Positions 19,992 through 30,998 of a DNA stretch of 34,006 bases are shown piece by piece. Source of the DNA: Candidatus Uhrbacteria bacterium (GTDB lineage: Bacteria; Patescibacteriota; Patescibacteriia; UBA9934); contig CAIKHN010000013.1 of NCBI GenBank assembly GCA_903827265.1, positions 1-34,006 on the forward strand, given 5' to 3'. The notes under the pieces were generated by a model, which saw nothing but the letters and a program-made list of their open reading frames with translations, was not told the DNA's origin and searched no databases. Position 1 is the stretch's first letter, and the number at the start of each line of letters is the position of its first letter. Made by a program: the position numbers and the translations under genes.

Positions 19992-20428
19992 AGCGCCCCC
20001 AGCACCACCAATGCCCGCTTGAATTCCGCAATTGCCTTTTCTGCTTGCGCAATCTTCAACTCCGAACCTGCTTCGTGTACGAGCGTGTTGCGCAATGACC
20101 GCGCCCAAAAGGTTCGTTGAAGATCGTGATATTTTCTGCTCGCAAACTTCAATCGCTCCCCAGTCGTTGTTCCCGGAAATGCTTTTGCCTTCAGCGCGAG
20201 TTCGAGCACCGCATCGGCCTGAATAATCGCCAAACGCAAACTCATTATGTCACCCCGACCCGCCAAATCTTCAACCGCCTTCCAGTGTTTCGCGACAGAA
20301 TCACGCTCGCTCCCGAATCTCCACCGTCGCATTGTTCGCCGAATCCACACGGTCGCGATCACGAGAAATACAAAACCGACGACACCGATCACCACATACG
20401 GAATGATGTCAAAGCTAAGCTTTAACAT
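19988..20428 (-). CDS. Hypothetical single-TM protein whose likely ATG lies in a palindromic repeat
   Basis: MLKLSFDIIPYVVIGVVGFVFLVIATVWIRR…; stop overlaps the lgt start by 4 nt (ATGA). Confidence 0.75.
   Translation of the reverse strand: MLKLSFDIIPYVVIGVVGFVFLVIATVWIRRTMRRWRFGSERDSVAKHWKAVEDLAGRGDIMSLRLAIIQADAVLELALKAKAFPGTTTGERLKFASRKYHDLQRTFWARSLRNTLVHEAGSELKIAQAEKAIAEFKRALVVLGAL
20410..20426 (-). repeat. REP-like palindrome GTTAAAGCTTAGCTTTG, copy 1
   Basis: Plus strand CAAAGCTAAGCTTTAAC. Confidence 0.95.
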
Positions 20429-20473
20429 CTGAATCCTTGAAATATCAGGCATATCATCGTATGCCTCGAAAGG

Positions 20474-20490
20474 CAAAGCTAAGCTTTAAC
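20474..20490 (-). repeat. REP-like palindrome, copy 2 (64 bp from copy 1; contains the gatA stop codon)
   Basis: Plus strand CAAAGCTAAGCTTTAAC. Confidence 0.95.
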
Positions 20491-21906
20491 ATTCAACGCC
20501 TCAAATGCTGCGGCGACCTGCAGAACCTTGTTATCGTCGAAATTCTTTCCAAGAATCTGCAATCCCACCGGCAACCCGTGCGCCGTGCCACATGGAACGG
20601 AGATGCCTGGGATACCCGTAATATTCGCGGCAACGGTAAAAATATCGGCAAGATACATTGCGACAGGATCGTTCATCTTTGCCCCAACATCCCACGCGAC
20701 AACCGGCGACGTCGGGCTCACGATAACATCAACACGCGCAAATGCTTGATCGAATTCTGTCTTTAACGCCGCACGAACCGCGATTGCCTTTTTGTAATAC
20801 GCGTCGTAATAGCCAGCAGACAAAATGAATGTCCCGAGCATAATTCTGCGTTTTGTCTCTGCGCCAAATCCTGCACCGCGTGCTGATCGGTAGCTCTCTT
20901 CAATCGCACCCTCACCACGATTCCCGTATCGCATACCGTCGAATCGTGACAAGTTACTGCTCGCTTCCGCTGGCTGAATAATGTAATACGCCGCGAGAGC
21001 GTATGGCGAAAGCGGCAAGGAGATGTCAACAATTTCCGCGCCTGCCCCTCGGAGCTTCTCGATGTTTGATCGAACGCACGTTGCGACATCTTCATCCATT
21101 CCATCAATGAAATATTCCCTTGGTACACCAACGCGAACGCCCTGAAGACTCAGCGACAAATCAGCCGCCACTGGCTCATCGAGCACAACCGAAGTTGCAT
21201 CGAGCGGATCCTTTCCTTCGATAACAGACAAAACGATTGCCGCATCTTCAACATTCTTTGTAAACGGGCTTACCTGATCGAGACTTGATGCAAGCGCAAC
21301 AATTCCGTAACGCGAAACACGTCCATATGTTGGCTTCATCCCGACGATTCCACACAGTGATGCTGGCTGACGAACGGATCCGCCAGTATCCGAACCAAGC
21401 GCAGCAGGAACCATATCCGCAGCAACAGCGGCCGCGGAACCACCCGAAGATCCACCAGGCGTTTTTGTAACGTCTAATGGATTTTTTGTTTTTTGAAATG
21501 CTGATGTTTCGGTGGACGATCCCATCGCAAACTCGTCCATGTTTGTGCGGCCGATGATAATTGCGCCAGCGACCTGTAATCGAGCAACGACCGTTGCGGT
21601 ATATGCCGCGCGATAGTCCGCAAGCATTTTTGATCCCGCGCTTGCAACATGGCCCATGAGAAGCATGTTGTCTTTGATTGCAATCGGAACTCCAGCAAGC
21701 GGGAGACTTTTTTCTCCAGCAGCATGACGAGCGTCAACGTCCTTCGCCGCTTTGCGTGCATCGTCGGCAAATACTTCCAAGAATGCGCCGATCTCGCCGT
21801 CTTTTTTCTCGATCCTGCTCAACGCCTCGTCGACAATCGATGCCGCAGTTGCCGATCCCGAGTTCACCGCATCGCGAATTGCTCTTACCGTCCAGTTCGT
21901 GGTCAT
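20479..21906 (-). CDS. gatA: Asp-tRNA(Asn)/Glu-tRNA(Gln) amidotransferase subunit A
   Basis: Amidase signature TPGGSSGGSAAAVAADMVPAALGSDTGGSVRQPASLCG. Confidence 0.97.
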   Translation of the reverse strand: MTTNWTVRAIRDAVNSGSATAASIVDEALSRIEKKDGEIGAFLEVFADDARKAAKDVDARHAAGEKSLPLAGVPIAIKDNMLLMGHVASAGSKMLADYRAAYTATVVARLQVAGAIIIGRTNMDEFAMGSSTETSAFQKTKNPLDVTKTPGGSSGGSAAAVAADMVPAALGSDTGGSVRQPASLCGIVGMKPTYGRVSRYGIVALASSLDQVSPFTKNVEDAAIVLSVIEGKDPLDATSVVLDEPVAADLSLSLQGVRVGVPREYFIDGMDEDVATCVRSNIEKLRGAGAEIVDISLPLSPYALAAYYIIQPAEASSNLSRFDGMRYGNRGEGAIEESYRSARGAGFGAETKRRIMLGTFILSAGYYDAYYKKAIAVRAALKTEFDQAFARVDVIVSPTSPVVAWDVGAKMNDPVAMYLADIFTVAANITGIPGISVPCGTAHGLPVGLQILGKNFDDNKVLQVAAAFEALNVKA

Positions 21907-21909
21907 AGA

Positions 21910-22194
21910 TTATTCAGCAAAAACTCCAGGAACTTCCATCGTACCACCAACCTGCTTTGGGAACGCAGCAACAACAGCGTCGCGCTCGTTGCGAGTTGAG
22001 GTAACGACGTCTTCGCGCAACACATTCACTGCATCGGTAAGATACGCCTTCGCGTCGACTCCCGACGTGTCGACTTCCTGCAGCTTGTTGATGTATTCCA
22101 AAATATCCGGAAGCTGACGTGCGAGCATCTCCTTTTCTGCATCGGTGAGTTGTAATTTGGCTAATGTTGCAAGCCGATTGATGTCGATATCCAT
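21910..22194 (-). CDS. gatC: Asp-tRNA(Asn)/Glu-tRNA(Gln) amidotransferase subunit C
   Basis: Short ORF next to gatA; ATLAKLQLTDAEKEMLARQLPDILEYINKLQEVDTSGV. Confidence 0.95.
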   Translation of the reverse strand: MDIDINRLATLAKLQLTDAEKEMLARQLPDILEYINKLQEVDTSGVDAKAYLTDAVNVLREDVVTSTRNERDAVVAAFPKQVGGTMEVPGVFAE

Positions 22195-22197
22195 AGA

Positions 22198-24592
<2,395 letters not shown>

Positions 24593-24612
24593 TTTTATCC
24601 CTGAAACGCAAA

Positions 24613-24635
24613 CGCCCCGATCGAAGATCGAGGCG
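24613..24635 (-). terminator. Putative terminator of the hypothetical gene at 24684
   Basis: CGCCCCGATC-GAA-GATCGAGGCG (one mismatch), minus strand continues TTTGCGTTTC. Confidence 0.55.
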
Positions 24636-24683
24636 CCGTACTCGCCGAACCGTTGCCGGCGAGGGTGTCTAGTGGCCGAAGCC

Positions 24684-25202
24684 CTAGACGAAGGTACCGA
24701 AGTTCTCCCGCCCGAGGGTCTTGAACCGCTGCGCCGCAGCTTCGCGACCGTCGCCGCGCGAGCAAAAGTAGTGGAGCGGCGCAAGCATCGCGCGCACGAC
24801 CTCGGCCTTGGTACCGCGACCGATCACCGCGTAGCCGACCGAGTGCCCATCCGCGTCCACGATGATGAAACGACGGGCTTCGAAGCCGTGCTTGACGATG
24901 ACGAACCGCGTCAGGATCTTCCGCGGCATGACGTTGCCGTCGCCGTACATCATGTAGACACCGTCGCTGATGGGGCCGAAGGTGTCGAGCACGCTGTACG
25001 TCCGCCACCAGAACATCGCGAGGACCGCATTCCGGATCACGTTGAGCCAGGCCGGCCACTTGGGATTGGAGGTTGGCGGCATCTTCGGATCGCCCTCGAG
25101 CTCCTTGCCGAACTTCCCTTCCGGAAGCTCGTGACCAAAGATGCGCTCGTACGGAACGGGGATGCCGAGAAGGGAGAGGATGAACAGAGGGATGAGATTC
25201 AC
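24684..25202 (-). CDS. Hypothetical protein (in-frame ORF extends to 25295, but that region holds a terminator and promoter)
   Basis: VNLIPLFILSLLGIPVPYERIFGHELPEGKFGKELEGD…; upstream promoter TTGCTT-17-TATTAT. Confidence 0.65.
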   Translation of the reverse strand: MNLIPLFILSLLGIPVPYERIFGHELPEGKFGKELEGDPKMPPTSNPKWPAWLNVIRNAVLAMFWWRTYSVLDTFGPISDGVYMMYGDGNVMPRKILTRFVIVKHGFEARRFIIVDADGHSVGYAVIGRGTKAEVVRAMLAPLHYFCSRGDGREAAAQRFKTLGRENFGTFV

Positions 25203-25239
25203 GTTTTCACCGGGGGAACGAGTATTGATCGAACACTCT

Positions 25240-25268
25240 ATAATAGCATATTTCCCCACAAAAAGCAA
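25240..25268 (-). promoter_or_regulatory. Putative promoter of the hypothetical gene at 24684
   Basis: Minus strand TTGCTT (25268-25263), 17-nt spacer, TATTAT (25245-25240). Confidence 0.5.
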
Positions 25269-25269
25269 C

Positions 25270-25293
25270 GATACGGCTAATATTAGCCGTATC
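25270..25293 (-). terminator. 24-bp perfect palindrome, likely terminator of the pil gene group
   Basis: GATACGGCTAATATTAGCCGTATC; minus strand continues GTTGCTTTTTGTG. Confidence 0.7.
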
Positions 25294-25317
25294 ATTCATC
25301 GAATCCCCGCTTCGTAA

Positions 25318-25356
25318 GCCCCCTCCTTACTCCCCATAGCTGAGGGAGGGGCGTCC
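25318..25356. repeat. G/C-rich palindromic element, copy C (intergenic, directly after pilD)
   Basis: CCCCTCC(25320-25326)/GGAGGGG(25345-25351); more diverged than the other copies. Confidence 0.55.
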
Positions 25357-26160
25357 CTATCCAAGCAACCCGAAATACCAAGAAACGACCGAGTTGCCAA
25401 AGAAAAGCGCAAGGAATGTTCCGATTACCATGAAAGTTCCGAACGGAACATGACTGCGGAGGTCGCGGCGTTTAAAGAAGATGAGATACATGCCGAGAAT
25501 AGCGCCGATGGCGTAGGCGGTGAGAAGAGCGAAGATGCCGAGCTCGGGACCGAGGAGGAATCCCATCACCATCGCTAAACGAATATCTCCCCCACCAACC
25601 CACGTACCGCGGGAGACGATGTATTGAATAGCGAAGAACGCACCAAGAAGGAATCCGCCGAAGAGCATCGTTAATGGATCAACGCCCATCACCGCGTTCA
25701 GTGAAAGCGCGATGATCATTGCGGGAACAGACAATCGATCTGGAATAATGCTCGCGCGATAATCGAACATGAAAATTGGCAAAAGTAGCATGGCAAGCAA
25801 CCCGTTACGTGCAAAAAGTCCAATCGCGTCAGATGCGTCGCGAGCAAACAATGGGATATTCGTGTCTTGTGCAACAATCTGGTACGCGAATCCCATAAAC
25901 AACATCATCATCGCAATTTCAAGCGCAGGATACTGCCACGGAACGATCGATTTACACATTCGACATCGGCCTTGCAAAACAAGATAGCTTATTAACGGAA
26001 AGTGATCCTTTGCATGCATCGGTCTTGCACATGTCACACACTTTCGTCGTCCAGCCGTGAAACGTAAACCGTCCGGCGTACGAAGCAAAAACACATTCAC
26101 AAATGCGCCGCAAACCAAGCCAAGAACCCCTGCAACTGCTAGTGTTGGAAAAAATGACAT
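25357..26160 (-). CDS. pilD: Prepilin peptidase (A24 family)
   Basis: GAFVNVFLLRTPDGL, two CxxC pairs (CVTCARPM…CRMCKS), PDRLSVPAMI, GGGDIRLAMVMGFLLG. Confidence 0.93.
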   Translation of the reverse strand: MSFFPTLAVAGVLGLVCGAFVNVFLLRTPDGLRFTAGRRKCVTCARPMHAKDHFPLISYLVLQGRCRMCKSIVPWQYPALEIAMMMLFMGFAYQIVAQDTNIPLFARDASDAIGLFARNGLLAMLLLPIFMFDYRASIIPDRLSVPAMIIALSLNAVMGVDPLTMLFGGFLLGAFFAIQYIVSRGTWVGGGDIRLAMVMGFLLGPELGIFALLTAYAIGAILGMYLIFFKRRDLRSHVPFGTFMVIGTFLALFFGNSVVSWYFGLLG

Positions 26161-26163
26161 AGG

Positions 26164-26649
26164 CTACAGCGTTGCACAAGCACCAGCAGTGAATCCATCC
26201 TCGCTCACACAATCCAGCCCTTTTGCAACACCGAGGAGCGAGTTTCCACTTTCAAGTTCAAACTGAATGCGATACGAATCTGCGGTTCCGCTATAGCAAT
26301 AGACATCGTTCGTTCCGCCGCACGCAACGAGCTCACGAAGACCTGCAGATGGTGGAATGGTTACGACGGAAAGATACGGCGTCGGACCGTTTGATGAACA
26401 TGGCGCAGCAAAACCTTCCGCAGAAAGACATGCAGTCAGCGCTTGGCCAAGCGGAATTGCCTCCGCAGCAACAGGATACGAACTATGATTTTGGAAATAC
26501 ATTTCAAGCGCCATTTGCAACTCGCGAACGTTCGCAAGACGCGTCACGTCTCGTGTGTGACTTCGCGCAGAAAGCACAGCGTAGCCAGACACAAGTCCAA
26601 TAACACCAATGATTGCGCCCATGATGAGAATTTCTGCAGTTCGTGTCAT
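26164..26649 (-). CDS. Pilin/pseudopilin-like protein
   Basis: N-terminal hydrophobic helix, RDVTRLANVRELQMALEMYFQNHSSYP pattern as in type II/IV pseudopilins; lies next to pilD. Confidence 0.8.
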   Translation of the reverse strand: MTRTAEILIMGAIIGVIGLVSGYAVLSARSHTRDVTRLANVRELQMALEMYFQNHSSYPVAAEAIPLGQALTACLSAEGFAAPCSSNGPTPYLSVVTIPPSAGLRELVACGGTNDVYCYSGTADSYRIQFELESGNSLLGVAKGLDCVSEDGFTAGACATL

Positions 26650-27029
26650 AGAAGGATCATGTTATGAAGCCGTTCCGCGATGTCACGCGGTGTGCTGTGT
26701 GGTGTAAGAATAATATCATCTGTTCCAACGCCATGAAGTGCGGAAACGAAATCGCTCGACGCACGGGCCGCAAAAACAACAATATGTAATGCTTTCGTCG
26801 TCGGCTGTTTCCGAAGTTTTCGGATTGACGAAACAACATCGTCATCCCCACCCACGCTGCCAACATCAACGACAAGAAGTGACGCATGGAGCCGAAGTGC
26901 CTGCCGCTCGAATTCAGCAATCTCCGGCACAAGAACCACTTTTGCAAAGCGTTCAAGGTGTCGTTCATACACTCTGCCAAGCGCAGCGTGCGTCGTCACC
27001 AACACAATTGTTGGTCGTATGCCCGTCAT
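26646..27029 (-). CDS. Degenerate response-regulator receiver domain protein
   Basis: Receiver-like order TIVLVTTHAALGRVYERHL…ASLLVVDVGSV…GTDDIILTPHSTPRDIAERL. Confidence 0.7.
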   Translation of the reverse strand: MTGIRPTIVLVTTHAALGRVYERHLERFAKVVLVPEIAEFERQALRLHASLLVVDVGSVGGDDDVVSSIRKLRKQPTTKALHIVVFAARASSDFVSALHGVGTDDIILTPHSTPRDIAERLHNMILL

Positions 27030-27032
27030 ACG

Positions 27033-28118
27033 TTATTTGTCTTTTTCGGGGATAACACGCATCGCTAAGCCGATCGCAACCGCGAGCCTGCTTCCCACTT
27101 CATCAAGAACTCCGCGCGACTCTGGTGGCGTTGCAATTCGTGCCCACGGATCGCCGACGTACACATTCATATTCAGCGTTCCTGTCATTGCAGCATCGAT
27201 TCCTGCAAGGGATGCCGATCCGCCGGTAACAATGACCTTATCGACAGGTTTTGGCGCCTGCGCGCTTTCCTGAAGGTTCATATCAAGCGCGTATTTCACC
27301 TCATGCAACAACGGCTTTATCGCGGAAAGAATTGCCGGCGGCATTGCCGCACCAGTTGCGAGCACGAGATCTTTTTTTGTTGCCTCCGCTTCCGGAAGAC
27401 CTAAACTCATTGCGCTCGATAACGCTTGTGTAACAGCGCCACCACCCGATTTAATACCACGAGTAAGATACGGAACGCCTCGTTCAGCAATAACAATGTT
27501 CGTCCGTTCGCCACCAATGTCAACAATCATCGTCTTCGCGTTGTCTTTTCCAATCAACGATCGCATCAACGCAAAAACTTCTGTTTCCAAAGAAATTAAT
27601 TCGATTTTTGCAAGCGCAAAAACGGCAAGATATTTCTCGACTAACGTTTTTGGCGCAGCGGTCACTTGCACCCGAACGGTTTTTACTCCAGTCTCCCCTT
27701 CTTTCGGTAAAAAATCTTTATCGATGATATGCGAATCGATAATCATCTCTGAAACTGGCAACGGTAATAGCTTTCCCGCCTGTGACTCGACGATCGGACG
27801 AATATCTTCCTTGAGGGATTTTGGCGCGGGAATACTGATAATGGCATGAAACACGCTCTGTGCAGGCAATGAAGCAACGGCTTTCGTCGCCTTCATGCCG
27901 CTCTCCTTGATGATGCCCCGAAGCACCTGCGCGAGTTTCCTTGGTTCGTCAATGGAAATCGGCGACGTGTCAGCGCCAAACGGGACGTCGGCGTAACCGT
28001 ACGTCACTAATCGAACTCGGCCGGCGTCAGGAGCGAGTTCAACAACCTTCACCCCTGTCGTCCCAATGTCAACGCCAAGCAACGCCTGCGAAACCTCCTC
28101 TTTTTTTGCTCCAAACAT
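27033..28118 (-). CDS. pilM: Type IV pilus assembly ATPase-like protein PilM
   Basis: LLGVDIGTTGVKVVEL, MIVDIGGERTNIVI, VIVTGGSASLAGIDAAM (actin-like/PilM motifs). Confidence 0.93.
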   Translation of the reverse strand: MFGAKKEEVSQALLGVDIGTTGVKVVELAPDAGRVRLVTYGYADVPFGADTSPISIDEPRKLAQVLRGIIKESGMKATKAVASLPAQSVFHAIISIPAPKSLKEDIRPIVESQAGKLLPLPVSEMIIDSHIIDKDFLPKEGETGVKTVRVQVTAAPKTLVEKYLAVFALAKIELISLETEVFALMRSLIGKDNAKTMIVDIGGERTNIVIAERGVPYLTRGIKSGGGAVTQALSSAMSLGLPEAEATKKDLVLATGAAMPPAILSAIKPLLHEVKYALDMNLQESAQAPKPVDKVIVTGGSASLAGIDAAMTGTLNMNVYVGDPWARIATPPESRGVLDEVGSRLAVAIGLAMRVIPEKDK

Positions 28119-28126
28119 ATAGGGAA

Positions 28127-28132
28127 AGTATA
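28127..28132 (-). promoter_or_regulatory. Putative -10 box (TATACT) 8 nt upstream of the pilM ATG
   Basis: Minus strand TATACT-TTCCCTAT-ATG. Confidence 0.45.
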
Positions 28133-28142
28133 GCACGGAGGT

Positions 28143-28159
28143 GTTAAAGCTTAGCTTTG
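28143..28159 (+). repeat. REP-like palindrome GTTAAAGCTTAGCTTTG, copy 3
   Basis: Exact 17-mer. Confidence 0.95.
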
Positions 28160-28200
28160 CGATCGAAACCGCGATCGAATACGCCAAGATTTTCGATCAT

Positions 28201-28839
28201 TTAAATGTTAAAGCTTAGCTTTGCCATATCTCGATGAGGAATCCACTCCCGAATGAAGACCAGATATTCTTCAGTCGACATTAACGACATCAAAAATTCT
28301 GGATGAATAATTGGGTCGATTGACGCGCCAATGTAATGACGAAGACTTGACCATGGATATTCCACGAGTTTTTCGAATCGTCCGCTTCCCTCTTCAAATA
28401 CATCGAGTTGATTCAAATGAACGTACCGCGTCGAATGTAAAAACTGTCGATCGTCCTCGATCAAAACGGATTTATACGATGATTCGAATAACGAACCGGT
28501 TCGATCGTATTTTCGATTAAAGTATTTTGTGTACCCCGTACCAAGTCGCTGCATGAATCGCGCGACTCCATCATCGACGACCTGCTTCAAAATAAAATGT
28601 ACGTGATTATTCATCAACGTGTAACAAATGATCTCGACCAGTGGAGTCGTCGAACGCAATGGATGACTACCGTCTTCCCCGAGTTCGGGCTTCCTTGCAA
28701 TAACTTCGTCGTCGTTGAAAAGAATACAACCCCGAAGAAACCGACGACGATCCTCATCACAGAGAAAAATATCCCGCCGATCGACTCCACGATTGTAAAT
28801 ATGGTAGTAGCAATCGGCCACCATCGGAGTAACGCGCAT
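28201..28839 (-). mobile_element. REP-associated tyrosine transposase (RAYT, Y1_Tnp/IS200-like HUH family)
   Basis: CYYHIYNRGVDRRDIF, HUH motif NNHVHFILK, GYTKYFNRKYDRTGSLFESSYKSVLIEDDRQFLHSTRYVHLN; flanked by exact palindromic repeats. Confidence 0.93.
28207..28223 (+). repeat. REP-like palindrome, copy 4 (64 bp from copy 3; overlaps the RAYT C-terminus)
   Basis: Exact 17-mer. Confidence 0.95.
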
Positions 28840-28865
28840 AATAGATTGATTTTCCTACTTCAAGT

Positions 28866-28882
28866 GTTAAAGCTTAGCTTTG
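28866..28882 (+). repeat. REP-like palindrome, copy 5 (overlaps the RNase HI C-terminus)
   Basis: Exact 17-mer. Confidence 0.95.
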
Positions 28883-29301
28883 TTTTTTACCCCGTCCAGC
28901 GTCTCGTTCACCAACGCGTCAGCGGCCGCGTTCTGTTCACGGAACACATGGGAGAATGTGATCTTCTTAAACTTTGTGCGAAGATTATGAACCTCAAGGA
29001 ACCGCTTCGCGATTTCAGGATTCTTCACGCGATAAATACCGTTGATCTGTTTTACCGCGAGCTCGGAGTCGAGCCGGACATCAACCTCTTCGTATCCAAG
29101 ATCGAATGCTTTTTGCAAACCAATAATGATACCGGTGTATTCCGCCTGGTTATTCGTATCGATTCCAATGTACTTTGCTGCGTCAGCAACACGCTCGCCT
29201 TGCTCACCGTTCGCTGAAAGCGCAAACAGGACAGCTGCTCCTGCAGCAGGACCAGGATTTCCTCGACTTCCTCCATCTGCGTACATTCGTACTTTTTTCA
29301 T
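28867..29301 (-). CDS. rnhA: Ribonuclease HI family protein
   Basis: VRMYADGGSRGNPGPAAGAAVLF, NNQAEYTGIIIGLQKA, VRLDSELAVKQINGIYRVKNPE, EQNAAADALVNE. Confidence 0.95.
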   Translation of the reverse strand: MKKVRMYADGGSRGNPGPAAGAAVLFALSANGEQGERVADAAKYIGIDTNNQAEYTGIIIGLQKAFDLGYEEVDVRLDSELAVKQINGIYRVKNPEIAKRFLEVHNLRTKFKKITFSHVFREQNAAADALVNETLDGVKNKAKL

Positions 29302-30998
29302 AGTCGGATATCTACGATTCTGCATTGTACATCTCTTCGTCCGTTCCACTCGTTGATTCCTGGTTCGTACGCAATGTCGACTTGTTTTCCACGAACGAGC
29401 ACTTCCGCTTTATCACCCATTCCGAAACCGACCATCTTACACACCTTCCCCGCGCTATCGAGTACGGTGAGTCGCAGATGTGCCCCCGTCGATCCCATCG
29501 TTTCTGCAATCATCACCGTCATTTTCAACGCGCCAAACACTGGCGGACGATTCCCTTCGCCAAATGGCGCGCACGCATTCAATTCGCTGATACCGTCAAT
29601 CGTGAACGTCGACGGCGCAATGATCGCATCGATAGGAAGCGTCACTGACGGTCCGTTTGCCCCGAACTTCGATCGCGCAAAAACATTCATTTGGGTTCGA
29701 AATTCATGCACGTCATCCATCGATCGTACCGATAAACCACACGCCTGAGGATGCCCACCTTTCTTGATGAAAATATCGCCGCACGCATTCATTGCTTCCA
29801 CCAGATGCAATCCACCAGCCGTGCGGCCACTCCCCACGTAGTGATCACCAACTTTTGTGAGCGCAAATGCCGGCAGCGCAAAGTCATTCACGAGACGCCC
29901 GGCAATGAGCCCAACAATCCCTGGCAACCACGAATCGCTCGCAACAACTACCACGTTGCAATCGTCATCAATCATGGACTTTGCGATCTGTTCTGCCTCC
30001 TTGTACGAATCTTTAAAAATCGACTGACGTTCTTTGTTCAGTGCCTCGAGTTTGGTTGCCGCAACCTCAGCAGCCTCAGCCGTTTGCGCGGTCAGCGTGT
30101 CGAATGCCAATTTCGCGCTCGATAATCGCCCCGCAGCATTCAGTCGAGGTCCAATCCGGAATCCGATTGCTGTCGTATCAATCGTGCCGAGATCGGTCCC
30201 GGACATCGCAAGCATCGCACGAAGCCCAGGGCGACGCGTCTTGTTGAGTACCTGCAACCCAAATGTTTCGAGCACGCGATTCTCGCCAAGAATCGGCATT
30301 ACATCGGTGACAGTTGCAATTGCAACAAAATCAAGAAACCATTTCTCGTATCCCTCAGGAATATCGGCTCCTCGATTCCGAGCTTCGTGAATCAAGGCTG
30401 ATGCAAATTTGAACGCAACGCCCGTCCCGCACAATGTTTTATTTGTATACGTCTCCCCCGGCGCTAACGGATGCAGCACCGTCGCATGACTTGGAAAATG
30501 CGTACCCATCTGATGATGATCACAAACAACGACATCGATCCCCGCCTCAAATGCGCGGCCGAGCTCCAACCCATTCGCGATTCCGCAATCAACGGTGACG
30601 AGCAACTTCTTCTTCTCTTGAATGAAGCGTTCAATGGTATGCATTGCGACGCCGTATCCATCTTTTTCACGATCCGGAAGAAACACTTCAACGTTAAAGG
30701 CAAACTTCATCTTCTCGGTAATATATCGCAACGCCTCAAACAACAACGCCGATCCCGAAACGCCGTCCGCGTCATAATCACCATGAATAACCACTGCGTC
30801 ACCACGCTCGATTGCGCCGAACATTGCAACAACAGCGCCATGCATTTGCGTGAAATCGAACGGCGAGTACGTATCACGTTCCCAATTTGGCGCCAAAAAT
30901 CGCTCGCGATCTTCGACCGCAACGCCTCGATTCACTAAAAGCTGCGAAACGAGATCATCCTCGCTCCGCGGCGCAATGTTCCATGCAATCGTCGCCAC
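29298..30998 (-). CDS. recJ: Single-stranded-DNA-specific exonuclease RecJ (GTG start)
   Basis: VVIHGDYDADGVSGSALLFEAL, VTVDCGIANG, VVCDHHQMG, IGPRLNAAGRL, GGHPQACGLS. Confidence 0.95.
   Translation of the reverse strand: MATIAWNIAPRSEDDLVSQLLVNRGVAVEDRERFLAPNWERDTYSPFDFTQMHGAVVAMFGAIERGDAVVIHGDYDADGVSGSALLFEALRYITEKMKFAFNVEVFLPDREKDGYGVAMHTIERFIQEKKKLLVTVDCGIANGLELGRAFEAGIDVVVCDHHQMGTHFPSHATVLHPLAPGETYTNKTLCGTGVAFKFASALIHEARNRGADIPEGYEKWFLDFVAIATVTDVMPILGENRVLETFGLQVLNKTRRPGLRAMLAMSGTDLGTIDTTAIGFRIGPRLNAAGRLSSAKLAFDTLTAQTAEAAEVAATKLEALNKERQSIFKDSYKEAEQIAKSMIDDDCNVVVVASDSWLPGIVGLIAGRLVNDFALPAFALTKVGDHYVGSGRTAGGLHLVEAMNACGDIFIKKGGHPQACGLSVRSMDDVHEFRTQMNVFARSKFGANGPSVTLPIDAIIAPSTFTIDGISELNACAPFGEGNRPPVFGALKMTVMIAETMGSTGAHLRLTVLDSAGKVCKMVGFGMGDKAEVLVRGKQVDIAYEPGINEWNGRRDVQCRIVDIRL

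Follow-up and report, generated by a model that had tools for sequence, protein, structure and literature searches.

Which DNA does a transposase act on when it lies among exact copies of a 17-bp palindrome in a genome of Candidatus Uhrbacteria, and how did that arrangement arise? The locus lies in a 34,006-bp contig stretch (the window), in which a sequence-only reading had recognised a Y1/HUH transposase and had proposed a divergent REP/RAYT system.

The transposase is probably of the RAYT type

The open reading frame at 28201-28839 matches Pfam Y1_Tnp above the curated cut-off (E 2.8e-7). Against NCBIfam REP_Tyr_transpos, the NCBI model for REP-associated tyrosine transposases, the protein scores E 1.3e-7 and 31.6 bits, below the cut-off of 80; the same model is matched by 24 of 24 relatives. 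A single-sequence search of the PDB with the protein returned nothing useful. A fold search with its AlphaFold model (pLDDT 90.5) ranked 4er8, the E. coli RAYT/REP hairpin complex, first among PDB entries (E 1.5e-7, probability 1.00), followed by the TnpA proteins of ISDra2 and IS608, and the predicted fold of the window RAYT is thus that of a TnpAREP.

Four residues (H79, H81, Y139, and N143) are invariant in an alignment with 24 relatives, H79 and H81 forming the HxH motif. We assign Y139 in RYVHLN as the catalytic tyrosine, in preference to the Tyr of GYTKYFN, because it is invariant in the 24 relatives and aligns to 4er8. The Y---N(P) motif reads NQ in the window RAYT and NP in most relatives. 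The Pfam match, the invariant HUH and Tyr residues, and the best fold match bear out the Y1/HUH identity. The gene is under purifying selection that is weaker than that on its neighbours (dN/dS of 0.20 versus 0.04-0.05, with dS near saturation).

The window genome (G000) holds a second RAYT-like gene, of 288 aa (G000:C24, stretch L020 8950-9860). It is flanked by inverted GGGGTCAGGTCTTGAAT-type repeats and fits the published TIRYT motif GGGGWSAS.

Palindrome copies at the window loci

The 17-mer GTTAAAGCTTAGCTTTG is present exactly at 28143, 28207, and 28866 on the plus strand and at 20410 and 20474 on the minus strand, all five positions being those given in the sequence-only reading. That reading also had the RAYT gene lying between direct copies. 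The plus-strand copies do flank the gene, but the one at 28207 is actually inside the RAYT frame, and the distal pair is inverted relative to the RAYT copies (Table 1). Dinucleotide shuffles gave 0.04 matches to the 17-mer even when up to three mismatches were allowed. The two strands differ in predicted hairpin stability (-4.8 versus -3.3 kcal/mol), the better one having a 9-bp stem and a loop of TTA. An Rfam search of 20000-29500 gave no match.

Table 1. Coordinates of the RAYT locus and its palindromes in the window.
Feature	Position	Strand	Remarks
Whole RAYT unit	28141..28894		Missing from G004 (36 bp instead); breakpoints at palindromes
Y1/HUH transposase, RAYT type, 212 aa	28201..28839	-	ORF list, Pfam, fold, invariant residues
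Palindrome copy upstream of RAYT	28866..28882	+	Gives last codons and stop of rnhA-like gene (KNKAKL, stop)
Palindrome at RAYT 3' end	28207..28223	+	Within reading frame; encodes last residues AKLSFN(I)
Palindrome between RAYT and pilM	28143..28159	+	Outer edge of inserted unit
Direct palindrome doublet, 81 bp, beside RAYT	28143..28223	+	Start-to-start 64 bp; MITE-like
Second direct doublet, 81 bp	20410..20490	-	At gatA 3' end
Palindrome of window RAYT			GTTAAAGCTTAGCTTTGAC
Palindrome of G002 orthologue			GTCAAAGTCCGACTTTGAC

Several copies contribute coding sequence. One copy of the doublet at 20410..20490 supplies the GatA C-terminus and stop (NVKA, stop), and the second is read in frame early in the gene that follows (MLKLSFDI). 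Last codons and stops are likewise drawn from palindrome copies in the rnhA-like gene (NKAKL, stop) and in a gene on contig C28 (DVKAKL, stop). The copies that supply these three gene ends are at 20479-20490, at 28867-28882, and on C28 (stretch L019 8109-8125). The 17-mer itself carries stops in two of the three frames on each strand.

The sequence-only reading had noted no obvious GTAG/GGAG guide, and this held up. In canonical REPs, GTAG/GTGG (or GGAG) stands 0-2 nt 5' of the hairpin; no conserved guide tetranucleotide was found beside 13 copies from three genomes. One of the 13, at 28143, has GGAG 3-6 nt upstream. Each of the 13 copies is preceded by a T, and only this T(-1) is invariant. 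In E. coli RAYT, residues W94, Q95, E100, H101, and R104 contact GTAG (PMC6006769). The corresponding positions in the window RAYT are F, E, S, V, and E in a weak profile alignment to 4er8 (E 0.18), and this apparent replacement of GTAG-reading residues agrees with the missing guide.

Distribution of the 17-mer

The sequence-only reading had called for the 17-mer to be counted genome-wide and in sister genomes. Across the window genome (954,851 bases) there are 10 copies, nine exact and one with a single mismatch. Six of them form three pairs, always direct and exactly 64 bp start-to-start, and the others are single. Among 23 family genomes, allowing one mismatch, copies are restricted to three: 10 in the window genome, 2 in G002, 1 in G004, and 0 in the other 20, which confines the 17-mer to one genus. 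G002 and G004 carry copies although a different palindrome flanks the RAYT orthologue of G002 and an orthologue is missing from G004. With the caveat of the single G004 copy, the 17-mer is not equally abundant where a RAYT is lacking. A Chi-like or DNA-uptake signal was rejected, as there are only 10 copies in 955 kb.

These counts also bear on whether the palindromes (AAAGCTTAGCTTT sites) are operators of a host regulator or terminators, the RAYT having merged into the picture only as a bystander that inserted next to a few of these sites. Perfect odd palindromes, several at gene 3' ends, would suit such a role; yet copies lie in frame within coding sequence, no consistent T-tract follows the copies examined, the palindrome is missing from 20 of 23 relatives, and the flanking palindrome differs from one RAYT to the next and tracks RAYT similarity. 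We therefore consider this role very improbable.

In the window genome, 290 bp of G000:C12 (stretch L017 9574-9860) are crowded with copies of three or more palindrome families, GTCAAAGTCCGGCTTTGAC, GTTAAAGCTTAGCTTTG, and GTTAAAACTCGGTTTTGAC, and a TAAAGACCTGACCCC repeat lies just beyond. The cluster is possibly a landing hot spot for palindromes.

Insertion sites and effects on genes

Alignment of the window to G004 runs to 28140 and resumes at 28895, with 36 bp between in G004. Because the alignment breaks there, we take the RAYT unit to be bounded by its outer palindromes. The unit is also missing from G001. A deletion in G004 may be the alternative to an insertion, the comparison drawing on few genomes and few exact sites; likewise, it is from few genomes that we infer the ages and direction of insertions.

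At other sites the palindrome appears in place of different sequence. The gatA 3' end carries the 81-bp doublet in the window genome and about 50 other bases in G002 and G004. In G004, cysS contains an in-frame copy (stretch L023 9117-9133; VLKLSFDI) that leaves the gene unchanged in length relative to cysS of the window genome and matches another copy along 25 bp. Gene conversion of the RecA type, spreading copies from palindrome to palindrome without a transposase, could account for a cysS copy that replaces sequence at constant length and for a gatA doublet that replaces about 50 bp instead of inserting cleanly. We judge it highly implausible as the general explanation: the pairing of transposase with palindrome, the fixed spacing, and the presence or absence of the RAYT unit are left unexplained. 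The same two sites (G004 cysS and the gatA neighbour) could instead point to a guide-less, hairpin-specific HUH enzyme whose specificity changes together with that of the palindrome at a fixed locus, the hairpin spreading by templated in-frame replacement and not by insertion; this we hold to be improbable.

The missing unit in G004 would also be expected of an ordinary insertion sequence of the IS200/IS605 kind that lacks any REP-type relation to its host, its left- and right-end hairpins being the palindromes and its MITEs (PATE-like) the doublets. The same-orientation, direct hairpins are as found at IS200/IS605 ends, and the doublets resemble internal deletion derivatives, those of genome G013 carrying the RAYT 3' end. 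However, the RAYT is the single copy of its kind in the window genome, and where one genome has paralogues, they have diverged from each other and are not identical. Its Y139...N143 arrangement is the Y---N of class 2 and not the Y---Q of IS200 (PMC6006769), its nearest fold is the RAYT 4er8, and isolated single palindromes exist too. An ordinary insertion sequence thus appears unlikely.

Other enzyme and palindrome pairs

G002 has a RAYT orthologue, 61-62% identical, at the same locus between the rnhA-like gene and pilM. The order palindrome-RAYT-palindrome-spacer-palindrome is as in the window, and the palindrome is GTCAAAGTCSGACTTTGAC. Allowing two mismatches, GTCAAAGTCSGACTTTGAC has 8 matches in G002, 5 in the window genome, 1 in G004, and none in the other 20 of the 23 family genomes; it is therefore restricted to the genus and commonest in G002. 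Three matches (G000:C21, G002:C1:120121, and G004:C13) share a single conserved stretch of coding sequence and are unlikely to be repeats; removing them leaves 7, 4, and 0, respectively. Here GTCAAAGYCNGGCTTTGAC, within the conserved stretch GSKSGFDSLEECFGEM (stretches L181, L184, and L185), is repeat-like and probably ordinary coding sequence.

Further pairs occur in the family. The G013 RAYT is flanked by TGCAACCCTWAGGGTTGCA, which has 14 copies in G013 and none elsewhere; the fixed-spacing doublets of this genome are at 57 bp and take in the RAYT gene's 3' end. The palindrome TCAACCCTTAGCGTTGACC is commonest in G015, which has its RAYT, and is also found in G003 (exactly at G003:C13:14023 and G003:C24:8597), where no RAYT was found. 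Orphan palindromes would therefore persist, and those of G003 were possibly left behind by RAYT loss.

At RAYT loci with enough flank, upstream and downstream flanks share an exact word of at least 14 bases in 80 of 97 cases, compared with 13 of 1940 mismatched flank pairs (0.7%); four of the loci are contigs seen twice, and without those the figure is 76 of 93. The core of an upstream-flank palindrome recurs downstream at 64 of the 97 loci, compared with 36 of 1921 controls. These recurring palindromes are nearly all odd-centred, often with GTCNGAC, GTTNAAC, GCTNAGC, or ACTNAGT. Similarity of palindrome arms rises with protein identity (Mantel rho 0.30, reached by 0 of 2000 permutations), with 5.1 of 6 arm positions matching for RAYTs at least 60% identical and about 2.4-2.6 of 6 below 40%. 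Scanning the genome collection with a 6-row subset of the 24-row RAYT alignment gave at least 568 relatives, mostly in Patescibacteria. At E 1e-20 or better the family was found in 64 of the 286 class genomes sampled (about a fifth), a figure that counts some distant TIRYT-like proteins. On these sequence comparisons, dozens of relatives each pair with their own private palindrome, making up a naturally diversified set of enzymes and hairpins.

Proposed explanation

The family and predicted fold, the invariant active site, the flanking and dispersed palindromes, the 64-bp spacing, the palindrome-bounded presence or absence, and the co-variation are the observations on which our explanation builds. 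HUH enzymes such as those of IS608 and ISDra2 and TnpAREP bind a hairpin on one DNA strand and nick beside it by means of a tyrosine. We think it probable that the window RAYT is an enzyme of this type that recognises and nicks a cognate hairpin, accompanied by low-copy, MITE-like palindrome pairs; binding, strand choice, nicking, and movement are here what we infer. The Y1/HUH transposase would recognise the hairpin TGTTAAAGC-TTA-GCTTTGACA on one DNA strand and nick single-stranded DNA beside it through Tyr139. Nicking would move or copy small palindrome units, chiefly the 81-bp direct pairs, and the RAYT gene would itself lie within such a palindrome-bounded unit. The hairpin would be private to the enzyme lineage, with enzyme and palindrome changing together, so that the cognate pair differs from one related genome to another. 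The divergent REP/RAYT system first proposed, one that lacks a GTAG guide, is supported by the copy count, the restriction to one genus, the palindrome swap at the orthologous locus, the private palindromes of other relatives, and, in a weak alignment, the loss of GTAG-reading residues.

Work on RAYT hairpin choice and on the joint change of enzyme and repeat has mainly used the GTAG REPs of Proteobacteria. The present set is a large natural collection of guide-less pairs, including an orthologous locus with different palindromes, from which specificity residues could be mapped by covariation and swaps. It also offers candidate sequence-specific nickases of single-stranded DNA hairpins with many targets. 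Moreover, mobile palindromes, if they move as we propose, would rewrite gene ends in streamlined genomes.

Comparison with known systems

The locus shares much with the REP/RAYT (TnpAREP) systems of Proteobacteria, including the E. coli RAYT (4er8) and REPINs: an HUH and Tyr enzyme of class 2 in single copy, a gene flanked by palindromes that are dispersed as singles and pairs, and co-diversification of enzyme and repeat. Joint evolution of RAYT and REP is the view of Nunvar et al., as cited by Quentin et al. (PMC6006769). In contrast to those systems, the GTAG/GGAG guide is missing here, and the residues that would read it appear replaced in a weak profile alignment. A REPIN consists of two inverted REPs, whereas the three doublets of the window system are all direct, at 64 bp. 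Usual REP families exceed 100 copies per genome (PMC2817692), compared with 10 in the window genome, which counts against a REP/RAYT reading.

IS200/IS605 elements and their PATE or MITE derivatives are alike in HUH fold, same-orientation hairpins, and miniature derivatives; they differ in having Y---Q where the window RAYT has Y---N and in multiple identical copies, which are absent here.

Closer precedents have repeats other than GTAG REPs. Di Nocera (2013; PMC3733652) described RAYT-like genes bounded by non-GTAG repeats, some of which are self-complementary and occur in moderate numbers in the genome, and introduced the names TIRYT and TIRtron; TIRYTs fall mostly in TnpAY1 subclass 2.1 of Quentin (2018; PMC6006769). 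The window locus likewise has a RAYT-like gene between repeats that bear no relation to GTAG REPs, but it lacks the GGGGWSAS of the majority group and its protein is short (212 aa); the C24 RAYT has the motif and fits a TIRYT. In TnpAY1 subclass 2.6, or RAYT group 5, of Bacteroidetes, atypical flanking hairpins are repeated in the genome and the GTAG-reading region is not conserved (PMC6006769). Both properties are alike here, as compared by description only, whereas the host phylum differs.

Within our literature search, outside which lay subscription journals and preprints, no paper tying RAYT palindromes to Patescibacteria was found. What that literature does not seem to report is the wide occurrence in Patescibacteria of guide-less palindromes, mostly odd and each with an enzyme of its own, together with the locus switch and the direct, fixed-spacing pairs. 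Since the TIRYTs of Di Nocera and subclass 2.6 of Quentin are already described, the window system is a variation on a known type: a system in an ultra-small bacterium that is related to, yet distinct from, known REP/RAYT.
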